Assembly: GCA_902729315.2 (NCBI GenBank)
Contig: LR746278.1
Coordinates: 4,811,411 to 4,875,410, forward strand
Source: Spirodela intermedia
Taxonomy: Eukaryota; Streptophyta; Magnoliopsida; Alismatales; Araceae
Direction of reading: 5' to 3'
DNA length: 64,000 nt
The position numbers and the translations under genes are program-made. The notes under the pieces are model-generated. The model made no database searches. It had not been told where the DNA came from and was given only the letters and a program-made list of their open reading frames with translations. How positions within the stretch are numbered: the stretch's first letter is position 1; each line of letters starts with the position of its first letter. This document shows positions 4,001 to 28,200 of the stretch, piece by piece.

Positions 4001-6020
4001 AACTGCCTTTAACACCACACTATTTATTTCTCTGCAGATATGATCCTCGTAAGCGTATAACTGCATCCCAAGCGCTGGAGCATGAGTAATGCTTCTGTTT
4101 TCTTCTTATGACATTACCTATATTTCTCTTGTTAAACTTTCTGGCTGCAATTGTTTTTGGATAGGATCTTCTGAAGCCTTGCTATGTTTTTATGTGGTAA
4201 TTGCAATTAATTTCAAAATATCCATGCATGCTCGGATAATTACCACGAAGTTTGATGTCAACAAAAACAGTGTATTAAAACTATGCACATTACTGGAACT
4301 AGATCCAGTTTCCGACTGGGAGGGCAGAATGAGGACACTTTGCTTGGGTCTATATTTTCACTTGGGTTTGTCTTTCTGAATAAAGGCACTTTCGTGTTTG
4401 ACATGGTTGGTTATGTCATTTTATTCTGCTCTTCAGGTATTTTCGAATTGATCCGCAACCAGGGCGCAAGTAAGTTAATCTCTTCTACTTTATTTCCTTA
4501 TATCTGGTTTATAGTCCATCAATCACCTTGGGTATTGAACAGTTTATTTATGAGTAGAATCTCAGGGTATATAAAGCATATATTCCTCCACATTCTATTA
4601 ATGTGATCAGATAAAATGTGTCATCAATGCTCAGTGCACTGGTACCTACCCAACCAGGAGAAAAAGTGGTGAACTACCCGGCAAGACCAGTGGACACCAC
4701 TACAGATTTTGAAGGAACAGCAAGTGTCCAGTCTTCTCAACCGGTATGGCACAAATTTTGGATACTCTTCGGAGAATGCTATTCTTTCCTTGAAAAAAGT
4801 ACTAATAGGAACGTAAATAATGGTGTAGATATCTAGTTGCGGCTTTGGTTTCTCGTTTCTGGAGATGAGTGTATGTTGGTGCAAGAAGATATATGATCAG
4901 AATAAAGTGCAGTTTTGCTTGTAATACTTATAATGCCTGTGTTTGGCATCAAAATATAGCTAATTTTATATGTCTTTGGTAACTTTCTTCTTGAAAAGCA
5001 CCAACAAAGAGATGAGCAGAACAATTGTAGAGAACCAAGAGGAAGGGGCAGAATGAGAATAGAGGGCAAGGGACGAGTGGAATGAGGGAGAATGTGAAAT
5101 AAAACTGAATTGACTCTTTCTCATGGCAGTCCTCTTAGGTTAAAGGGCCCCCCAAGTTACAACAGTTGGAAAAAGACTGGCTTACAACGTTTAGCTAGCT
5201 AACAAGTTTATCAATGTAGTAGTCGTTCTTCTAGCATTCTCCACATGTCACTAGATGTTCGCTCATGTAGTATTTTATTTGTTGGACTTTGGGGCTGACT
5301 ATATTCAAAATCCATGAAATTTATTATGAAGAAAGATTTTGCACTAGAAAGATTTTGCTCTAGAATTCTTATAAGCATTGATAATGCTCCTTGCCCTAAA
5401 AACAGGAAAAACTGATGAAGAAATGAGCAGGAGAAGGGCCAACCCATCTCTAAGAATTGCTTATGAGCCTCAAGTCCCTTAAATATCTAAGAATGGACTT
5501 ACCATATTTCTAGGCCCTTGATTGTTCCTCCCTAGGACACTCGTCTTGAATAATTTTATTAATGAACATCGCTTATGCCTCAGAACGACTGCTACACTCC
5601 ATTCATGAAAAAAATCCTGTTGTTCACTGGAATTTCACACTTTCAGGCGTCATCTGGAAATGCTGTGGGAAGCATAGGGGTTGGGCCTGTTGGTAATCCC
5701 AGAGGGGTCCCTCGTCCGATGCCCATGGTGGGCATGCAGAGGATGCCAGCTTCAGGCATGACGGCCTACGGCATTCCTTCACAAGCTGACATGAGTGGTC
5801 TGAATCCAGGCGGAATTCCAATACAACGAGCTGCCGCTGCCCAGGCTGCTCATCAACAGGTATCTAACGTCAGCGAATCTGCAACTGACTGATATTTAGA
5901 TACCCATTTCTCTCATCACCTAACTTGCATCTTATTCCACAGCAGTTGAGAAGAAAAGACCCTGGAATGGGAATGCAGAATCAAGGATACCCTCCCCAGC
6001 AGAAATCAAGGCGCTTTTGA
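1059..6020 (+). CDS. CDKE-1: Cyclin-dependent kinase E-1 / CDK8 (Mediator kinase module), 5' part missing
   Basis: CDK8 is the kinase of the Mediator kinase module (with cyclin C, MED12, MED13) and acts in the nucleus on RNA polymerase II and transcription factors; the Arabidopsis homologue is HUA ENHANCER 3. Fourteen exons join in frame: 1059-1169, 1975-2078, 2234-2276, 2368-2466, 3051-3120, 3245-3339, 3465-3498, 3575-3659, 3740-3817, 4038-4085, 4437-4469, 4635-4743, 5647-5859, 5943-6020. They give 399 codons plus TGA. Visible motifs are [10 protein letters not shown] (catalytic loop), [10 protein letters not shown] (DFG), [10 protein letters not shown] (activation segment without the usual phosphorylated Thr, as in CDK8) and [15 protein letters not shown]. 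The C-terminal tail is Gly/Pro/Met/Gln-rich and ends KSRRF, as in plant CDKE. The plant family is about 465-475 residues, so roughly 70-75 N-terminal residues lie off the left edge. All visible splice junctions are GT-AG and no lesion is seen. Confidence 0.95.
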
Positions 6021-7125
6021 ATGATAACCTTGATGTTGGATACTCAAGCTACCTTCTCCCACTGAAAAAACTACATGGTATATACGGTGATAGACGAAGT
6101 TGGGGTTAGCAGCCTCCTATTATAAATGCCTCGTTCCATTTTCGTAAAGTTTGATCACGCAATTAACCATGTCTACCAGCTCTGCTTTCCCCATCTGTAC
6201 CATCATTATTTTATTTTTACTAACTTCAATTTCTTCCTGTGCAATTCGTTCCGCACGCTGTCTTAGCTGTCCCATTTATTGACCCTAGAAGGAAAGACTA
6301 TATCTGGATACTAAGATACCTTATCCGATTTCTATTAATAATGGATAAATGCATAGCTGTGTTCCATTTGAATCAATTAGTCAGGGAAATCTGCGGTTGG
6401 AGAAGTCTTAATCCATAAAGGTGATCAGATTCAATTCTCAGTGAGATCTCTGCTCCGCTGACCAGATTCATTTCTCTCTTGCAGGGGCTACAACAGTTCT
6501 CATGCACCGCCATGTTTCTGTGGCTTGTCTCAAGAGCTGTACTGGAGACTCTGAGCCAGTGTGGGAACCCTGACAGCATGAGGGGATGGCTGATGACGAG
6601 GCATTGAACTATTGGCTGATATGTTGGGATTTGGGGCTGTTCCAAGTCTTCTGGTGGGCATTCCCTACATTTTGGCTGTGGCCAGGCCAGTGTAAATCGT
6701 CCCATGTGCTTCATGATATCTGTGGCTGATTCGTTAGAATCGCTCACTGAGAATTGAGGTACACCACAATATCTTAAGGGGCTGATGGTGTATGTAAACC
6801 TGATGTGTTTATGTGCCAGAAAGGATCACTTAAGGTTCATGTATTGCAAATCCAATGGAGATGAAAATTATGAACTTTCCTTCTATTTGTGAGGTTTTGA
6901 GTGCTTGTAGATTTAAGGGGCTTTTTTTCCCACAAGTTGTTGATTGAAGGGGCATCTTTTCTGATCATTGTCGATTCAAGAATCATCTAAAAAGTAATAA
7001 TTGTAGATTTAAAGATAGTGAAGATTCATGTATTGTGGATTTAAGGTTCAATTTTCATTATTCCCTCATTTCAAATTTCTTGCCTTGTTGGTTCAAGGCT
7101 TGATTTTCTACCTTTTGTAACTTTG

Positions 7126-12526: not shown

Positions 12527-12585
12527 TATTCTATGTAAATAAATTTCAACATAAAACTAAATAATTTTAAACGTGATGAAACTCT

Positions 12586-12943
<358 letters not shown>

Positions 12944-13224
12944 TTATGTGGGCAACATTAAGAAACATAAGAAACGAGTAGTGGCCTGGTCTTAGCATCT
13001 CACATTTTGAAAAGGTGGACTAGATATGGTAAATCCAGTGATCAAATAATAGACCCTCACAAATGTAATAAGCGGGAATTCACCTGATGTTATGCGTTCA
13101 TCTTCTCGGCTTAATCTGAAGCCGATCAGAACTTGCGTCGTGAGAAAGAGCGGTTTCCGAGAGAGCCCACAAGATATTCGGATGCGCTCCAGCCCTACTG
13201 CGTCTTGCGCGCCTCCAACTCAAA

Positions 13225-16200
13225 ATGGCGGCGCCACGAGGTGTAAATCGTCCTCCTTTGCTCTGAGATTATTTTGTTATCCTTTCCTTGTCGTTTTTTG
13301 TGCAAGATATTGCGAATGATGAGAACTTGATCTTTCGCGGTACTAGTCTTAATCATTTGCTTTGCTATGGCTGCGCAGAAATTCCGGGATTCTATTTTAA
13401 TGCGGAGAAGAATCGTTACTTTCCTATCAAAGATCCAATACCTGGAAGAATCAGACGCCTCGCTCATACTGTTGCTGTCGAGGAGGCGACATCACCATCT
13501 TCTTCTTCTCACTCTCCTTCCTCCTCTAGAGAACACGGCAAGGCCAAGAAAGTACGCCCGAAGAATTTTCCTTTTTCGACGATTTAATATGTTTTCTCTG
13601 GATTCAGGGGAATACGCAGTAAACGATAATTGCAGACATGGAAGGCCATGAACAATCTCTTCGTTCCCTATTCTTACGTGATTATTTTCTACCAGGATAT
13701 TTCCATTTGTTAGGGCGATGCTTGAATCATGTTCATCATGTTGTTTTGCTACAACTAGAATGATGTGCCATCATTCAGTGTTAAAATAATTCACTTCGCA
13801 TTAGATTGATCACGTGGTTTATTTTACGTATTATATTCCATTAGCTGGGTGCTGGTGATTGTCCACTATTGCTTCTTGATTAAATCTTTTGTTATGGTTT
13901 TCTTTTGATTGACCAAAGAAACGGTATCACAAATACTTGATGTTGTCTAGGGATGCCATGTGAATATCACCCACAAGGGAAAGAGAACGAGAGTCTCTGA
14001 CCTCTTGCAGTTCAGAGAGCTGTATGGACGACTTCTCATGTTCAGTGGAAACAGATGCTTCTTTGAGCAAGAATGTGACAAATTGTTAGTTTCCCGATCG
14101 TTGGTATGATCTTCACTTTCTCATTCATTCAGCTCCACTTGGGTGTCCCTGAAATTTTTGGCTGCCATTTCATTAATGCATATGAGATAAAACATCTAAG
14201 TTTTGAGTCGTTAATAGCCATGGTTAAACTTCCTGTTGTTTCTAGATCATCGTGGTATAAGATATATGTTGACAACTTATGTCGCCGGTGCTTTTCTCAT
14301 GAATATGGCCTCCATTTGCTTTGACACTGCACATCTCGAGGACCAAACAAACGGTTGACACCCTTCCCAAAGATGGTGTTGATCTTTTCTGGCTTCTTGA
14401 CGATTATTTTTTCTTCACATCCTGATTGGTGCAACTGTTTGACTTTAAAGGTCTGTGTACATTTTACAGATCATCATTGTGTAGAAACACTTCACACATT
14501 TTTGATGCTAGATCACGATGCCAGTTTCTGTGGTTTTCTTAAGCTTCATTACTTCTCTTATTAAATGGTGTGTATTTATTTTTCAATGGCCATCTTTCTT
14601 AAATTGAACTTTTGGTTGCTGTTTTTCATAGAAGTGGTTGTAGGTGAAGCGACCATCATAAAGAAGACAATACCTACTTTCTGATGCTTCTTTGGCCTCC
14701 AGACCATTAATTCAAGAAGTTTACTTTATATTTAAATTCACTCTGAGAAATCTTCAAAGCTGAAATAAAATACTGATTTTAAGGGTATCACTCTTGCTCT
14801 TCGAACCCTCATTTCAACATTTAAGCTACAAGTGGATAATATCGGATGGAACAACTTGTAATTCATGCTCTGTTTAAATCTGCTTAAAAAGGAGCTCAGT
14901 AGTCTGAGTTTGAAATGGTAAATATAACAATGGAACTATAGTTAAAATAATAAAATTCTTCGAAAAACATTGACCATAATACGGCCCTGTTGAACGGTTT
15001 TTTAGCATTTTCTAGGGGATATTCAGGACAAAAGGTGACCATGTGCATTTCTTAGGTACTTGCCACATTTGTTATTGCACATCTAAGAGATGGCCTGTCT
15101 CTGGGATGCTTTCATCTTCTGTTTCTGAAAGATATTGATAATTCGAATATTTAATTCGTGTAAACAATGTCAGGATACTTTTGGTTGTGAAATTTGTCGC
15201 TATGTTATGATTGCTTCATTTGGTTCATTCTCTGCCTTCACCGTAAAGATTTGTTAAATCGATATATCAATGGCGATGGAGATATTTTCATGATATATAC
15301 AACTTTCTGCAGGTGTGGAAATATAAGAACACAGATTTACTCTCTGACAGCGCTTTGGAACAGTTTAATGCTCCAATTCAAACACCTGAAGGTCAGAAGG
15401 AAACAGATGTTTTATTAATGGGTAGTAAGGGTGGTTCCTTTAGGTAGGAATGTCTCTATCCAGTTCTTTTGAAAGCCTCTTTTTATTATAATTATTCAAA
15501 CTTTTGGAATTTTTATTTTCCTGTACATTTTAATTTTTTTATAGTAGGCTTTATAGATAATTATTTATTATTATCTCGATCCTTGGCCATGTCATGGCTT
15601 GCCATGCTTGATTGGCTTGCATGAATTTCTGTTTTTTCACATTATCAATCCTTGGTACACCCCAGAACGTTTTCCAAGGGATGAATTGCTTTAAAAGGGA
15701 TTTGAAGTTAAGACTTGTATGATACATCCCCTTTTACTTTGAAATCTTGAACGAGGCTCTTATTTCTTGATTGTTATGGAGAATTTTGTCGATGATCTTT
15801 ACAGAGAAAGTTGCCAAAATGAATAATCTGGGAAGGATAACATGCAGATATTTTGGCTCGCTTGTCCTAGTCTGTCTCGAAATTTTCTCAAGCTTGGGCT
15901 ATGTCTGTGGATTTATTGCCGGAAAATGATGGAAGAAATCATTTCAAGAGGGTAGGTGGATCCTAAGGGAGTCTGAGTCGTTTTTCAGTGGATGTTTCTA
16001 AATATGATCATGAAGTCTGAGTCATTTACGGTGACGTTATATGCCAACTCCAATTCATGAAACATCGTGGAGAGTGAAATTTCTGGGTTTGTCATACTGC
16101 AGCACGTGTTTCAACAATGTATGGTGAAAGAGGACCATAAGGTTAAGGATTATTCAGGGCCTAGAGCTACTTGACCATATTCTATATTCAATGGATTTGA

Positions 16201-19200
16201 TACAATCCCGCCTAAGGGTTCATCTGGGCACAGATCTAGCACTACCCTCAACAGTTTGTGTTGCCATAACTGCTGTATCATCAGTTGTAGTCTTACATAC
16301 AATATCTTACTGTAGATCCGTCACCGTTTTGAAATCTAGCTATTGAAAGAGTGACCTTTGTTGGCATCTCCATATCTGGTTTATTTGCCAGTAGGTGTGG
16401 AGTTCTCTCCGTTCTGGGTGTTAAGGTGAGAGAAGGAGCCTCTTGAAAGCTTCCGGACAACTTAGAGTTTCCTGTGGGACCCTGATTTATTGTTCTGTTA
16501 TATTATCTTTTCCTTTTGCTACTTTTCACTCTCTTTTTCTAGTTGTTTCCTTTGCTGCTATTCGGGGTCGTATCAATGGTATCAGAGCACGGCCTGGACG
16601 CCATGGGACCTAGACCTGTTGACACTCGTCTGGACCACCTAGAGTCAGTGACTGAGGGGGTCAAGGACATCGCCAATATGGTGGACATGGTCTTTCAGTG
16701 TCTTGATAGAATGGAGGACCATCTGACGGCAGTCAAGCAATGATGCTCTATGTCGCAACATTTGGAAGAAGGAAAGCCGGATGTTAGAGGGAAGAAGTCC
16801 ATGGCAAATGATGTCTCAGGTGCAAGAAAGCAAGGACAAGTGCGACCGCATGGGAACCACCTGGAATCGTCAACAAGGTTGGGACCAACTGGCTACTCCG
16901 ATTCAGGCAGGAGTGGATGAAGATGAGAAATGCAAATTTCTGTAACAGAGGGATTATCTGAGGAGGAACTTCCTCTATTATCTGTAAAAGAATTGAAGAC
17001 CGCTGGTAGTGTTTTTGGCCTAGAATCGAAGAGATTCTAAGGGGCAGATTTCACAAGGGCTTCAGGAAAATTTCAGGAAATATGGATTTAGTTATGGTGA
17101 TCCGTATGGTCGCCCTTCATCCTATTATGAAACATTTAACATTCTGAATGAAATTTTAGATGATGATGCCAGAACATGGCATGCTAATAGGAGAATATTT
17201 CCACAGCATGAGTTTATGATGCAGAAAAGAACTCGTTACAAAATTGAATCCATCAAAAGACAAAGCTCATAAAAGATTAAGCCTGAGATGGAGCTTTAGA
17301 GAGCTGAATCTGAAATAGTACGTGGTAAATTGGAAATTCATAATCTCTTTCAGCAACCTGAGTTCTCGATTTCTGAGGGAAAGCTGGATGATTATTTATT
17401 TGATTTTGAAGAAATCTGCAGCGAAAATGTTTTCTCTGCCAAATGCAAATCCATCGATATCTCAGCAGAGAATGAAATTATGCTGTGTCATGGCATTCGT
17501 GATCAAGGTCTTCTGCAGAAGTGTTTGAATCCTCATGTGTCAACTGATGACACTTCCCCGGATGAGGAAGGTGGATTGTGCCATGGCTGTGATTGTAAAG
17601 TAGCTGGCATGAACGTGATTAACGAGAAACAACGAACATACCTTTCAATCAAAGACGAATGGGAGAAAGTATCCCTGGTTTTTAGCCTTAAGATGGTCAG
17701 CATGTTAATACCCGGTTGCCACCAGATAATTATGAAAATCTTTTTATGATTATTCTCCAAATGACCCTGGAGCTGAAAACACTGAAGTGGATGAAGAGGT
17801 GAAGAAAGGATCAAGTTCTGATGAATCAGATTTCACATTCGATACTGATGATTTAAATGTTCTGAGTAATAAGGTCTCTATTGCTAATGAAGCATCAATA
17901 TCCCGAATATCCCAGTATTGAAGCATGGTGGAGGAAGTGTCACAGGTCCTTTGTCTGCTAATTCTTCACTTTACTCTTTTGAGTCAGAACTGGGCCAAGA
18001 AAATGCTATCCCACTGCCAAGTAAAATGCACCGGAAACATCTGGATTACAAGAAGTTATACAATGAAGCACACGGGAAAAAATTGCTAGATTCTAGTGAT
18101 GATGAAGAATGGGCTGATATGAGTATACTAATGAAATTGACTGTAACTGAAAAACAGCATGTAGCTGATGATTATGCTAAGTGATTACCGACTGGTTATC
18201 TGGAGAATAAGAAACTTGTTGCATCTTCACTCGCTTGCTTGACAGAGTCAACATCAAACTTTAAATGCTATAATCCTTCAACGAAATTTGAGCAGTGCCC
18301 TCTTTTGAACATATGTTACTGCTCACTTTCAGAAGTAGAGTTATCTCAAGGAAACGACTTGGTTGTTCTTGTCTACAATTTACTTGGTTGGAATAGGGAG
18401 GGGATGTAAGTAGAATACCGGTTTTTGGCGCATCTGTGATTGTCAGGGATTCTAAAGGAAAGATTGTTGACTCTCAGCTTCCGTCAATATGGAACATATC
18501 ATTAGAAATCCGAAAAATACATGCTAAAACAAACTTTTTGGGACATTTCCCCTGGGGTCCAACCAAGGTTTTGGCTCATCTTCCGGTATCTGTATCACCT
18601 CTAGGTTTTAGTACGTACTTTATTTCAAGTGCAGAAAAATCCATTTCAAGGCAGATTTCAGGGCATCTGGTCATGTCTATAACTTATGAAAACACATGAA
18701 AGTGCAAGTGTAATAGAAGTTGGCCAAGGGAACTTGAAGCTCGTTTTTTATGAAGGAAAAATGAGCCATTACTCGAACAATAGAAACTCGGTTAATACTA
18801 CTATGCATCAGTCCTATATTTATTGTTCTGGAGAGGATGAGTGTGGTGCTTATTATCAGGCCTCAGGAGCATTTTTTTTTTTCCCAAATGGTGCATTTTC
18901 AATACACCCTTTGGGACAAATACTTTTGACTATAATCCGAGGGCCAATTTTAGAGGAAGTACATCAACAAATAAATCCATGGATATATCAGATCACCAGA
19001 ATCTATAAGGAAGGGAGCTTGTAGAAACCGAACTTATTGTTGGCGCCCTATTCCTGTTGACGATGAAGTGGGGAAATAAATAGTCACTCAAATTACCAGT
19101 AATGTGAGAAATGACACAACGTTTTATATTGATCCTTATGGAAGCGATTTTATCATAGGGATTCGAGATTATAGATCAGATTGGAATCTAGAAGTGAATA

Positions 19201-22200
19201 AAACCGTTGTTGAAAATTATCATCCTATTAATCTAGGAATTTATATGTAGGAGGCTCGAGTACTTGAAATGGTCAAATAGAGTTGATGCTCCATCAACGA
19301 TTGGTGCATGATGATGGCCGAAGAGTTGCAGAGGCACTGAACGAGACTATTTGTGTTGATGAAGACTGCATAAGCTTAAGGATCTCAGGGAAATTTTATC
19401 TCAGAATTGATTCTCTGGAGGATGGCGCCAAGTGGTGTAGGTCGCTGGGGCAGGAGGTGTACTCTCCTCTTCTTATAGCGTTCTCAGAGCAGAATATAGC
19501 TTATTGGAGCTGCAGCTGGTAGGTTTGTTCTCGCATTGATAGTGATCCTTTTCGCTACATATGTGATGAGGGAGAAGAATAAAAGTGGAAGTGCTCCCCA
19601 TACAACAAAATCCAGCTCATTCACCTTCGATGATCGAAAGCCAATGATGTCTCAAATGCAGACATTGGACTCGGAGGGTATGGGAAGGCTGACCACAAAA
19701 TTCTACTGACGCGGCAACTTACTGCTATTGAGAGAGTTCAGCATGGGTCAGTGCTAAGTGGGTTTGAGTTCAAAGCTGGGATAGAACTATCGTCAATGGT
19801 TCATTATAAGAACCTGGTTAAGCTGGTAGGTTTTCTAAATCATCTGAGATGCACATATGTTGGTCTACAAAAGTATTTTCAATGAATCCTTGAAAAGAAG
19901 CTTTTCAAGAAAGTCAGGTGTGATGCTGGATCGGCAGAGGAGCTTTCTAATTGCTGCTGGTTCAGCCAGAGGACTCATCTATCACCAAGGATCACAGCTT
20001 ACTTTGTCAGTCCAGCCACATTATCTACTGAACCCTTGCCACTTGGCTTGAAAACATGAAGCATAGATACAACGGGAAGATTTTTCACATTTGACGCCAC
20101 TTGGGGGTCAACGAGGCATATCAACGCCACTGTCCTGACTTCCACCATGAGGACAAGGTGGATCTTTCAGGGGGAGTATTGATACGGCTCCAATTTACTT
20201 TGGGTAGGAGGGGAAAAGAGTGAATGTCAGAAGTGTAGGGGGTTTTTAGCAGATGTCTAAGGGGACTCAGGACGGAAATAGGTTTCTCAACAAGGGGAAA
20301 GGGTATGGAGTTTTTTGTGTTTTAAGGTGGAGAGAGAAAGAGCCTTTGAAAACTTGCGGACAATTGGGGTTCCTGTGGGACCCTGATTTACCGTTCTCTA
20401 TTTTATCTTTTCCTTTTGCTACTTTTCAATTGGCTGCTATTTGGGATCATATCAGGTTCCCTTTATGTTGAAGGTGGTCTCATGGACCAATTGCCTTTGG
20501 CACTTCTGTAGTGAATTTAGTTCAAACTATGACGAAGCACCTTCAAATTTTCAGCTATACTGGGGATTTGGTTGGTGAGCAAAGCTAGTTTATCAAGAAA
20601 TTGATGAACTTTCTCATGGAAGAAGTGAGCTTCTATAAAGCTGAAAACAAAACGATTATTACCATTGGGTACTTACCTGCTTATAGTCAAGGGGGCTGAC
20701 ACTTGAATTGAAGCTGCAGTTTTTTTTGAACTTGAGTTCTGTCCTGGTGGCTTTGGAGCCAAACTGAAGGAAGAGCAAAAATAAATTTGGTCTGGGGCAA
20801 ATCGAAAAAAGAGCTTCAACCTACGTTCAAGGGAGTGACTGACCCTTGGAAACTTGGTTCTGTTAGATGTCACTGCAAGGCAGGTGAAAGGAAGAGCGGG
20901 CTGAGCATAATAGACTGAAAAGTAAGTTCAGGCTGACTTCCACACTTATCAGTCATAAACCTTGTTTGTTGTTAGATGAAACTAAAGCCATCTCGAGGAT
21001 CAATGTCGGCTCTAGTAAAGACCTATTTCCTACTTGACTTATTATGAGCATGATAATGGGTTATGTCGAAAAGGAAGGCGCTGCCTTATTCATCTTGAGC
21101 GGGTCCTGCGGTGGTTTAGTGGTTTTTGATCCCTCTGACCACGGTCTGTATCAATGTGGAGATAAGGTTTGTTAGTTTGAATCAAGCCCTTTTGTTTCAT
21201 AGAAAAGAGGGACAGATCACACGAAAAAAAGCACTGGCGGGGCATTTTTAAAATACAGTATGAGCCCAGTTTGCTACATGTGAACCTTCATGATGGTTCC
21301 AAACTTATGTCACTATGTGCCTAAGGTGTTGCTGGATCCTTCTTAGTCACTGCCTTAAGTCGGTCTGCTTATGCTGTCATAGCCTCAGTTCACCATTTGA
21401 AAGATCCTATGTGTTTTATATTCTAAGGCATTATGTTTGAACGAAATAATTTTCGGGAACTTTATAGTTACACTCCACCTAATCTGGATCTTTAATGTTC
21501 AAGTCATGCCTTTCTTAATTTTATTTCATCTTTCTAATAGGACTAAAGTCTTGACCAATTGTCTTGCCTTCACGTACAATAATTGATGAAAACGAGTTAC
21601 ACACAGATGGGTGATGTTGATCTCGAGCATATGATAGTCGCATCTACGTCGTCATTTGTGGTTAAACTATTTTTATTTATACTTTATAAATGAAACTCTC
21701 TCGTTTTTCCATCTTCCCTTGGTTCTGATAGATTCCTTTTTAGTTTCTTATGTCAAGCTAAAATATTTATGCATATATATATTATTTTTTATTTTTTTCT
21801 CCAGTCTTTATGGAGTTGGAAATCTCGGGCATCATCTTGGCTATGGATTCAATTCAACACCATGGCCTGTATTCCCCGTCAATATGAAAAGGAAGTCAGA
21901 GTGGAGCATTCCTCCTGGAAACATTTGGACTTCTGCAGGGGCATCAACTAGATTTCCTTCAAGTGTTTCTTCCATATTGAAAATCGGAGCGTATTCTCGT
22001 GGAATTGCTGATCAGAATCCTTGTCAGAATGCATTGTATCCACAATAAGTTCTACATCAATTTTTTTGCATTAGTTTTTGACATTAATTTGAGGAATATG
22101 TTATCTTTCCTTTTAAAACTCATTCTCTTTCAATAATTTCCAGTTTTCAGCTTGATTGTGATTTGCTATTGCTTAACAATATCAAAACATGGTGACTACC

Positions 22201-25200: not shown

Positions 25201-28200
25201 ATGTGTAAACTGCCCATGTGATGTGGCAGACTGTCTTGTTGGACTAATGCAGATGCGATATTTTGTGTTCTAGCTAAAGGGAGATCCATCATTCCACTGT
25301 GCTTCGATGCCCTCAGCTGTTTGCAGGTAGGTACAGCACCCTTGTTCTTCCATGAACGATCTGCGGGGCACATTTCTTACCAAATAGCATGCGTTGTAAT
25401 TTATTTGGCTCGTATGTGGCCTAAATCCTTACCATTCTCTATATATCACAGCCTGGTACCTCTACATTCCGATGAGCAGTATTTCTTCGGAAGCTCCATG
25501 GATGGATCAGTGAGTTTTCAGCTCCATCTGTTTTGCTAAATTTCTCTCATCTTGGTTGATAAAAGTAAGCATCTGCATGCTCCTTTGGGATTTCTGAGTG
25601 GCTTCTGGTAGGACCCTGGTCCTGGACAGGAGCGGACAACAGACATATGGAAATAGAAAGGGGATGGTTGAAGATTAACAGTAGGCAATGTAGCCGGGCC
25701 CCAAAGAACCCTAGAGTTGGTGGAGAGGTCCCCTGCTCTCCCTCTGCCGCAGCTGCCCTAGAATACTCCTCGATACCCCCTTCCCCCCCAACGACCGGAA
25801 CCCTAATACCTCTTTTCCTAACAAGCCATCACTTGAAGGGATTGTTGGGTTCCTTCGAGAGTTGGTTCTAAGGCCCCTTGAGCCTCTCTTCTAGGCTGAT
25901 AGTAGTTAGGCTCACTGGGGGGCTAACAGCTTCCAAACTTAATGTTCTTTTCATCATTGTTAAACTAGTCATATAGAACTTTTCATCAGGCCGTGTTTGG
26001 GACAACCATTCGCTAAGAGTCTCTTTACCTGCAACAGATCTGTTTCCTATAACTTCGTATCTGAAAGATCTATTTCCTTTAACTTAACATCCGATTTTTT
26101 TTTCTAAGAATCCTAACTCCTTGTTCTCTTTGGGCCTGCCACATGTCTTGGACCTTGAGCAGTTACGTCAGCGTTGACATTTATTCAGTTCAGCAATTGT
26201 TTTGTTATACAAATGTCAAACATTTTTTTACGAGAGCAGTATACATAGAATACTCGTGCCTTGGGTTCCTGCTAATGTTGCTGATAAGACTCATGAAATG
26301 TATTAAGAATTGATCATTGCTATTGTAAAATCAAATAACTATCATTTTTGTCCAATCTAAATAAGCAAGATATCTATTGATTCGTCATTCTCAAGACCTG
26401 TTCTGCGAATTAAATTTTTTTACAACCTTAGAGACTCATGTAATATCTGGAATAGTGGGCCTTTGAATGGATGCTTCACAATGATAGAATATTATTGCAC
26501 GATCCAATTAAGACCATTTAGGATAGAGTTACGTGTATTGGGGATAAAGCAAGAAATATTAGTCTCCTTCACAAGAGCATTCCATTCTTTCTTTCTTTCA
26601 TTTTCCCTCCGCATATATTTATTTTTAACGTTCTTCTCTGATTTCTGTGTGCGGCAAGTAATATAATATTATCAGTATCTCAAAAGCTGTGAAAAGCTTC
26701 ACAATAGCTCAAATAATAATGATAATGTCCCTTGAAGGATTTGTTTCAACAATGAAGCTAGGAATAGCTATAAAATAAAGTTCAAGTCTCCTATTTTCCA
26801 TGATGGCATTATTTATTTCACAATTATTTGAACATTTTCCAATGCTTGTTGTCAAAATTATATCTGTTTGAAGAAAATAATCAACTACCAGTGCCTTTTA
26901 GGCATCCATTTATCATGAATGACATACATGTGAGATATTATCAAAATCAATGTGATGGCTTGTTTGGGTGTTCACACTTTTTAGTCTTATATCAATCGTA
27001 GAGCTTTGTATCAATTTAAAAATGTAACATGCTTCTTCTAGATGAAGAAATTAGGATCTGTGACATATTGGAGAGTAATTGTTGAAAGAAAGTTATGCCA
27101 AGGATAAGAGGCAACTACTTGCATTCAAGGGAATTTCGTAACCATCCCGTGAAGAATTTTCACATATGAAGTTTGAGGAATATATTTCAAACTTCTTCCT
27201 TCTACATGGCTACGTATTTCTTATAATTGTATGCTTCATGCGAGGATGACAAGACCTCAAAATACATCTGTGTCTGTCAAAGAGGATTGCTAATTAGGTA
27301 AAGACTAGGATTATATCGAATGCATGCGAGTAAATAGTCGTAACATATGGGAATATCAAAGAACACATTGGTAAAACATGCTTGCTCTTACTCTCCCTAT
27401 CCTGTTACTCTCTCTAGTTTCAATCATGAGGTACCCATTACCAATCTCTGAGATGTTGAAGAATTTCTGATTCAAATCCTTGTATCAGCCAAATTCAAAA
27501 TCAATCTTCTGCTGCTAAGCTGCTCCCCACATTATTTACTGCTCATCATTATATTGTGATTGTACCTCAACCATCTGGTTTAAGTTAGATAGCGGTATCC
27601 CCATTGTTGACTTTGGGTTTATCAAACAGCGAAGATGCATGAAGTGAAGGATAGTTTAAATGAGTTAAATCATTGATGAGTAGATAGCTAACTAAGCTTG
27701 GAAAATAATGGAAGCCATACGATTTTTTCATGTGACACTCTATTATGTTTCTGATGCCAAATGTTTCGCTATGCTATCACTTACAAACCAAAAGTGGCAG
27801 CAAATTAAAATATCTACAAGGCCTAATCAAGTTCGACACGAATATTCTCTAGTTCATTTAAGACAACAACAGATTGGATGAAAAAAAAAGGCACCCACCC
27901 ATTAAAAGATACCATTAAAATTATTATATGAATCACCAATGTGTTCAAATGGTAGATAGATCGAGCCATTTTCCCGTTCCTAAGCTTTCTTGCTGTCAAT
28001 AACCTCAGGGATCGTCCTTGTCTGCATGATAGCAGTTGCGCTTCTTTTTGCCATGAAAGGAGTGTTCTTGAATGCCATGATGTTTCTCTGCTCTTCAGTT
28101 CTTCTTCCTCCTTCAATCACAGTGTTGTGATTCTCTCTTCACTCATCCCGTTTCCTGTATGGATCCAGATTGAGCTATTTGACCAGCGTCTCCTGCATAG

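Follow-up and report, generated by a model that had tools for sequence, protein, structure and literature searches.

Long terminal repeat retrotransposons carrying intronless pieces of several host genes form a nested family in the genome of the duckweed Spirodela intermedia

The acquisition of host genes by long terminal repeat (LTR) retrotransposons has mostly been argued from single elements. In maize, the LTR element Bs1 is described as carrying pieces of three host genes (PMC13317346), while the soybean terminal-repeat retrotransposon in miniature (TRIM) GmaRetroS15, a small LTR element, is reported to hold exon-only fragments of three host genes in a survey that found gene-bearing elements mostly in at least two copies, taken as transposition after capture (PMC4717578). 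Host genes in LTR elements of rice and sorghum have been described as copied on by transposition (PMC3726574), and a maize survey counted 425 LTR elements with gene fragments derived from at least 189 captures, of which, under its conditions, none held more than one standard nuclear gene (PMC2774510). Herein, we report an LTR element that has taken up parts of three unrelated host genes, located in a window of 64,000 nucleotides from Spirodela intermedia (contig LR746278.1, positions 4,811,411 to 4,875,410; C15:4811411-4875410 in our contig numbering). The element belongs to a family whose members, at five loci, hold fragments of at least five host genes between them. The genome comprises 136.5 Mb in 32 contigs.

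The duckweed element resembles Bs1 as an LTR element with partial pieces of three unrelated host genes and without a complete pol, and the precedent invoked for this locus by an earlier reading of the sequence, hereafter the original prediction, is borne out by the published account of Bs1 (PMC13317346). Unlike the hybrid open reading frame (ORF) of Bs1, which is transcribed and translated according to the same text, the frames of the duckweed element are broken, and the host genes, the plant and the existence of relatives with different captures at shared seams also set it apart, the two elements being compared by description only. GmaRetroS15 differs in that TRIMs measure 1.2-1.4 kb, whereas the present element is not TRIM-like, exceeding 4 kb with gag and integrase remnants that point to a chromodomain Ty3/gypsy origin; the portion of the soybean account at hand describes no series of elements with shared seams (PMC4717578). 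Likewise, the rice and sorghum account, in its available part, treats captured genes singly (PMC3726574), unlike the duckweed family. Since none of the 425 maize elements held more than one such gene, the duckweed family is uncommon, and no such family was found in the open-licence literature on capture in Spirodela or duckweed, multiple capture by chromoviruses or sequential transduction. Multi-gene capture has precedents in Bs1 and GmaRetroS15, and the nested family is the unusual part. With several elements at hand, in which some seams are shared and some are not, the capture order, the side of addition and the seam sequences become comparable; a benefit to the plant is not indicated.

Comparison of the internal region with its own genome yielded 43 matching pieces, which can be assigned to the element, a second copy, a relative on C12, three parental genes and other loci of the left or right backbone. 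Each captured piece matches one locus exon by exon, with the parents distributed over three contigs (C3, C5 and C11), and all three pieces run in the sense direction of the element. The first piece (17264..18143, + strand) is a HAT3.1-type fragment including the PHD-finger portion, which lacks four secure introns of its parent at C3:4526243-4531427 (-), a gene with a PHD finger (Pfam, 4.4e-11) and a homeodomain (5.2e-12 with three exons joined); the fragment begins at a parental exon start (L035 about 2073, acceptor TTTGCAG). The second (18140..19492, +) is derived from a glycoside hydrolase family 38 (GH38) alpha-mannosidase at C5:5518324-5523505 (-), which matches Glyco_hydro_38C (1.7e-44) and the jack bean alpha-mannosidase 6b9o (4e-125), and from which 14 introns are missing. 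The third (19503..19995, +) extends from the transmembrane part to the N-terminal half of the kinase of a leucine-rich repeat (LRR) receptor kinase, whose parent at C11:1047154-1048023 (-) carries the kinase domain; two GT-AG introns are missing here, and a third gap is bounded by AG..AG. The seams HAT3.1|GH38, GH38|kinase (seen in the second copy) and kinase|integrase lie within exons.

The loss of introns was evaluated initially with a spliced aligner favouring GT-AG, which gave 24 long gaps in the window copy, 21 of them GT-AG (5 in HAT3.1, 14 in GH38, 2 in the kinase), and 26 in the second copy, of which 23 were GT-AG (5, 16 and 2, respectively). One 75-nt HAT3.1 gap in each copy was not accepted as a secure intron: its sequence is 83% identical to that of the 75 nt before it, and the gap can be shifted by 38 positions, which marks it as one unit of a tandem duplication in the parent. 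Its removal leaves 20 and 22 missing GT-AG introns in the window copy and the second copy, respectively. Because such an aligner is biased, the alignment was repeated without the preference, whereupon 29 of 50 gaps (at least 40 nt, both copies) fell within 3 nt of a GT-AG pair, compared with 2.5% under random placement. This excess renders the loss of introns from the captured pieces well supported overall, while the exact count varies with the aligner. The original prediction had described the pieces as intronless sense fragments of a HAT3.1-type, a GH38 and an LRR kinase gene captured from spliced mRNA, and had proposed a search for parental introns inside them; the exon-by-exon matches agree with that description, about 20 GT-AG introns present in the parents on C3, C5 and C11 being absent from the fragments.

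The second copy (copy 2), at C15:64.3-68.7 kb (internal matches 64.6-68.4 kb), holds the same three-gene order between its own LTRs, which are 86% identical over 294 columns in direct orientation and flanked on both sides by a perfect 5-bp target duplication, GATTC; its similarity to the window copy stops at the element limits. Copy 2 retains three GH38 exon blocks more than the window copy, and its kinase piece is longer at the start, so that the window copy has evidently lost this stretch at about 19493-19502, where a scar is now seen (19493..19502, +). At the C12 locus, a contiguous alignment to the window copy (70%, 711 columns) spans the HAT3.1|GH38 seam, but a 3' LTR was not detected. 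The chimera is present at three loci on two contigs with 70-82% identity, and the second LTR-bounded copy together with the C12 seam demonstrates that the three-gene chimera transposed. An assembly artefact, in favour of which nothing was found, can practically be dismissed, since loci so distributed and so diverged are not copies of one misjoin. The notion of independent retropseudogenes landing side by side within an LTR element, the alternative named in the original prediction, could appeal to intronless host sequence as their usual mark, but it is extremely improbable and already contradicted by the same order in two LTR-bounded copies and the recurrence of the HAT3.1|GH38 seam on C12, and no poly(A) run was seen at the aligned seams. 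The search for other copies, likewise proposed there, thus yielded copy 2, the C12 locus and relatives with different captures.

Every captured piece contains stops and frameshifts, the longest ORF within the element has 139 aa from a start codon, and no intact product is encoded by the chimera at present. The Kimura two-parameter (K2P) distance between the window copy and copy 2, taken over 2534 aligned positions, is even among the pieces (HAT3.1 0.174, GH38 0.185, kinase 0.180), and the changes private to one copy in GH38 and the kinase number 76, 90 and 90 at codon positions 1, 2 and 3, HAT3.1 and the first GH38 exon being out of frame and left out of these counts. As these private changes lack a codon-position bias, a coding function is not indicated, and they are as expected for decay without coding constraint. 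That the chimera might be a functional gene kept by selection, for which Bs1 provides a precedent (PMC13317346), is very unlikely in view of the stops and frameshifts in every piece and the even distribution of private changes. The LTR pairs differ by K2P distances of 0.140 in the window copy (150 positions), 0.141 in copy 2 (290) and 0.248 in a relative on C9 (260).

The backbone retains the hallmarks of an LTR element. The original prediction had delimited the element as 16198..20454, of which the 3' LTR (20180..20454, +) and the inner part of the 5' LTR stand, while the 5' edge at 16198 does not. The part of the 5' LTR homologous to 3' LTRs (16371..16575, +) starts at about 16371 (or 16394); the alignment of the stretch 16350-16575 with the 3' LTR of the same copy reaches a score of 174 (shuffle maximum 47), and 16394-16575 pairs with 20302-20454 over the 150 positions given above. 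Homology of the outer stretch (16198..16370, +) to the 3' LTR is unsupported, as 16198-16350 bears no convincing likeness to any of three LTRs, the best score being 38, with the 3' LTR of copy 2 (shuffles: 95% 31, maximum 42). A primer binding site, TGGTATCAGAGC (16577..16588, +), which we take to be of the tRNA-iMet type from its presumed match to initiator tRNA-Met, and a polypurine tract, GGGGGAG (20170..20176, +), before the 3' LTR are both present as predicted. Following the primer site, a gag-like ORF start of about 55 codons (16595..16743, +) is common to copy 2 and the C12, C9, C6 and C1:7.92 Mb loci, and the gag remnant on C6 is weakly related to other loci, among them L063, a Ty3-type gag according to Pfam (Retrotrans_gag 7.2e-17, Ty3_capsid 3e-14). 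The left backbone (16774..17264, +), whose sequence also occurs at other genome loci, gave no Pfam match. At the opposite side, the right backbone (20008..20176, +) aligns with L066, which encodes a chromodomain at the aligned region (Pfam 8e-7); the right ends of the window copy, copy 2 and the C9 relative score 95, 107 and 60 against L066 (shuffle maxima 38, 38 and 39). From this alignment, the backbone is an internally deleted derivative of a chromodomain Ty3/gypsy element (chromovirus) with an integrase remnant only. The predicted absence of pol accordingly needs qualification: Pfam comparison of six ORFs and other portions of the window element matched no reverse transcriptase, protease, full gag or integrase core, the internal region being taken up by host-gene pieces and left backbone, whereas the chromodomain end of the integrase persists at about 20008-20176. 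The family with different captured genes, the corrected 5' LTR edge and this integrase remnant go beyond the original prediction.

Two relatives carry other captured genes. The element at C9:6.63 Mb, bounded by an LTR-like pair (73.6% over 280 columns), continues from the left backbone into a piece whose parent lies at C11:1659521-1668562, seven blocks spread over 9 kb being condensed into 1.85 kb. Among the domain matches of pieces of this parent, that to a TIG domain passes the curated cut-off (4.2e-5), whereas that to an IQ motif does not (0.004); the pieces also match the solved TIG domain of CAMTA1 (7.9e-8), and on these grounds we call the captured gene a putative CAMTA. Next comes the kinase, present from exon 3 over the site of a missing intron (score 136, against a shuffle maximum of 36), and the C9 element and the window copy have the kinase|integrase seam in common; at 6 of 106 comparable kinase sites, all three elements agree against the parent. 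The element at C15:451-453 kb consists of the left backbone, a HAT3.1-like stub of about 45 nt, three blocks of a gene on C1 and the CAMTA end. The exons of the C1 gene, presumably WD40/tomosyn-like, lack one parental intron, and the alignment of the element to its C9 relative, 276 columns at 73%, bridges the CAMTA|kinase seam. Comparison of the stub with the parent or copy 2 gives p<=0.001 and with the window copy p 0.004, as opposed to p 0.97 with the C9 element, which has no HAT3.1. Provided that the stub is genuine, the 5' side of this element is window-like and its 3' side C9-like, the two being linked by way of a host mRNA.

The intronless sense pieces, the seams common to several elements and the same chimera in two copies between LTR pairs are best accommodated, with high probability in our judgement, by an internally deleted chromovirus that was served in trans and during whose reverse transcription templates were switched repeatedly; the original prediction had named template switching as an inference, and it now has more support. 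A non-autonomous Ty3/gypsy chromovirus would have kept its LTRs, primer site, gag start and integrase end, and its RNA would be reverse transcribed by enzymes supplied in trans. During minus-strand synthesis, which proceeds from the 3' end of the RNA toward the 5' end, the enzyme would leave the element RNA, copy part of a co-packaged spliced host mRNA and then return to the element RNA near its 5' end. In later rounds, a new host piece would be placed between the left backbone and the older capture, which would be trimmed from its 5' side each time. Two observations are as this model expects: the C9 element lacks more of the 5' side of the kinase than the window copy does, and at C15:453k the 5' side of CAMTA is cut back further than in C9. 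Read-through transduction, in which an element beside a gene is transcribed into it and the transcript is spliced and packaged, would likewise yield intronless sense pieces, and the start of the HAT3.1 piece at a parental exon start would suit it; it is nonetheless unlikely, for it would have to happen three times over with parents on three contigs, and element sequence flanks the captures on both sides. Template switching is preferred because the three seams lie within exons and the parents on different contigs.

A more far-reaching interpretation, for and against which we consider the chances evenly balanced, is that the middle of a crippled chromovirus lineage was exchanged time and again through template switches involving both the lineage's own RNAs and host mRNAs. 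The set would then be nested and partly mosaic, with the kinase in four elements, CAMTA in two, HAT3.1-mannosidase in three and the WD40-type gene in one, and one element would be a composite, its 5' and 3' halves coming from different lineages and being linked via a host mRNA. Should this be true, the family would preserve, in fossil form, the direction in which reverse transcriptase jumped and the order of its jumps. Concerning the order, changes shared by both copies against the parent are most frequent in the kinase (69/479), followed by HAT3.1 (67/806) and GH38 (65/1249; Fisher p 7e-4 and 6e-3), and this gradient, together with the kinase seam in C9, suggests that the kinase was captured first.

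Several observations weigh against the foregoing account. The gradient, and with it the order kinase, HAT3.1, GH38, is open to distortion by unequal parental rates, and the enrichment of shared GH38 changes at third codon positions (18/14/33) implies that part of them arose on the parental branch; the left-backbone tree leaves the capture order unresolved, 6 of its 8 inner branches being unstarred. The HAT3.1 stub is not distinguished at about 45 nt in the comparison with C12 (p 0.115), and the kinase tract of C15:453k alone, being too short, scores 35, below the shuffle maximum of 37. The window copy has its 5' LTR edge replaced or lost and shows no clear target duplication in its flanks (GGATT / GGTTC), the primer-site pattern is not detectable in copy 2, and three long gaps in each copy, out of 24 in the window copy and 26 in copy 2, are not GT-AG. 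Finally, genome searches revealed no active source of enzymes: those for an autonomous partner, with the gag start, gag remnant, LTR and right end, returned decayed relatives only among the matches listed, of which the loci L062, L063 and L066 were looked at without an intact element being seen.

Other loci with left-backbone sequence were also examined. C2:9234k and C9:4620k, candidates for open-frame parents of the left backbone, were rejected as two sides of one duplication, and an intron reading of the stretch was dropped after inspection by eye; the duplication (C2:9225200-9243700 / C9:4612000-4630500; L054-L057) spans at least 18 kb at about 98.5% identity and contains a left-backbone relic. 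A capture on C10 (L040) was also discarded, as C3 and C1 show a similar spacing of the matches lying downstream of its backbone piece, and we read it as a probable gene paralogue beside a relic. At C2:7609k (L041), another rejected candidate, what follows the backbone is a many-copy repeat (4779-6490; 40 of 3905 first-look candidates scored). L042 (C1:2098k) and L058 (C4:2100k) are near-identical loci (98% over 3.5 kb) in which short repeats enclose backbone sequence, and may represent an empty short form of the family. At C4:557k (L043, 4768-6791), a tandem array of about 255-bp units stands beside a left-backbone relic.

As the original prediction stated, the element resides in an intron of a WD40 gene, now recognized as DCAF4-like and lying on the same strand. 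The upstream exon (15313..15443, +) has homology to 15432, its splice site being read by eye, and the next coding stretch (21803..22036, +) lies downstream of the element and matches the Wolffia protein P0002. The downstream host exons match the DCAF4 propeller (Pfam, 4.9e-11), and the best protein matches of the host gene come from Spirodela intermedia, with Wolffia second. The 21803-22036 exon is present in the Wolffia DCAF4-like protein and skipped in the S. intermedia annotation. Within the same gene, 25604-25823 (-) shows a match of ~77% to the region just downstream of the C1:2098k backbone piece and is likely a solo-LTR or short-element relic. Elsewhere in the window, 12539-12961 is a long GA/CT-rich simple repeat that is open in several frames.

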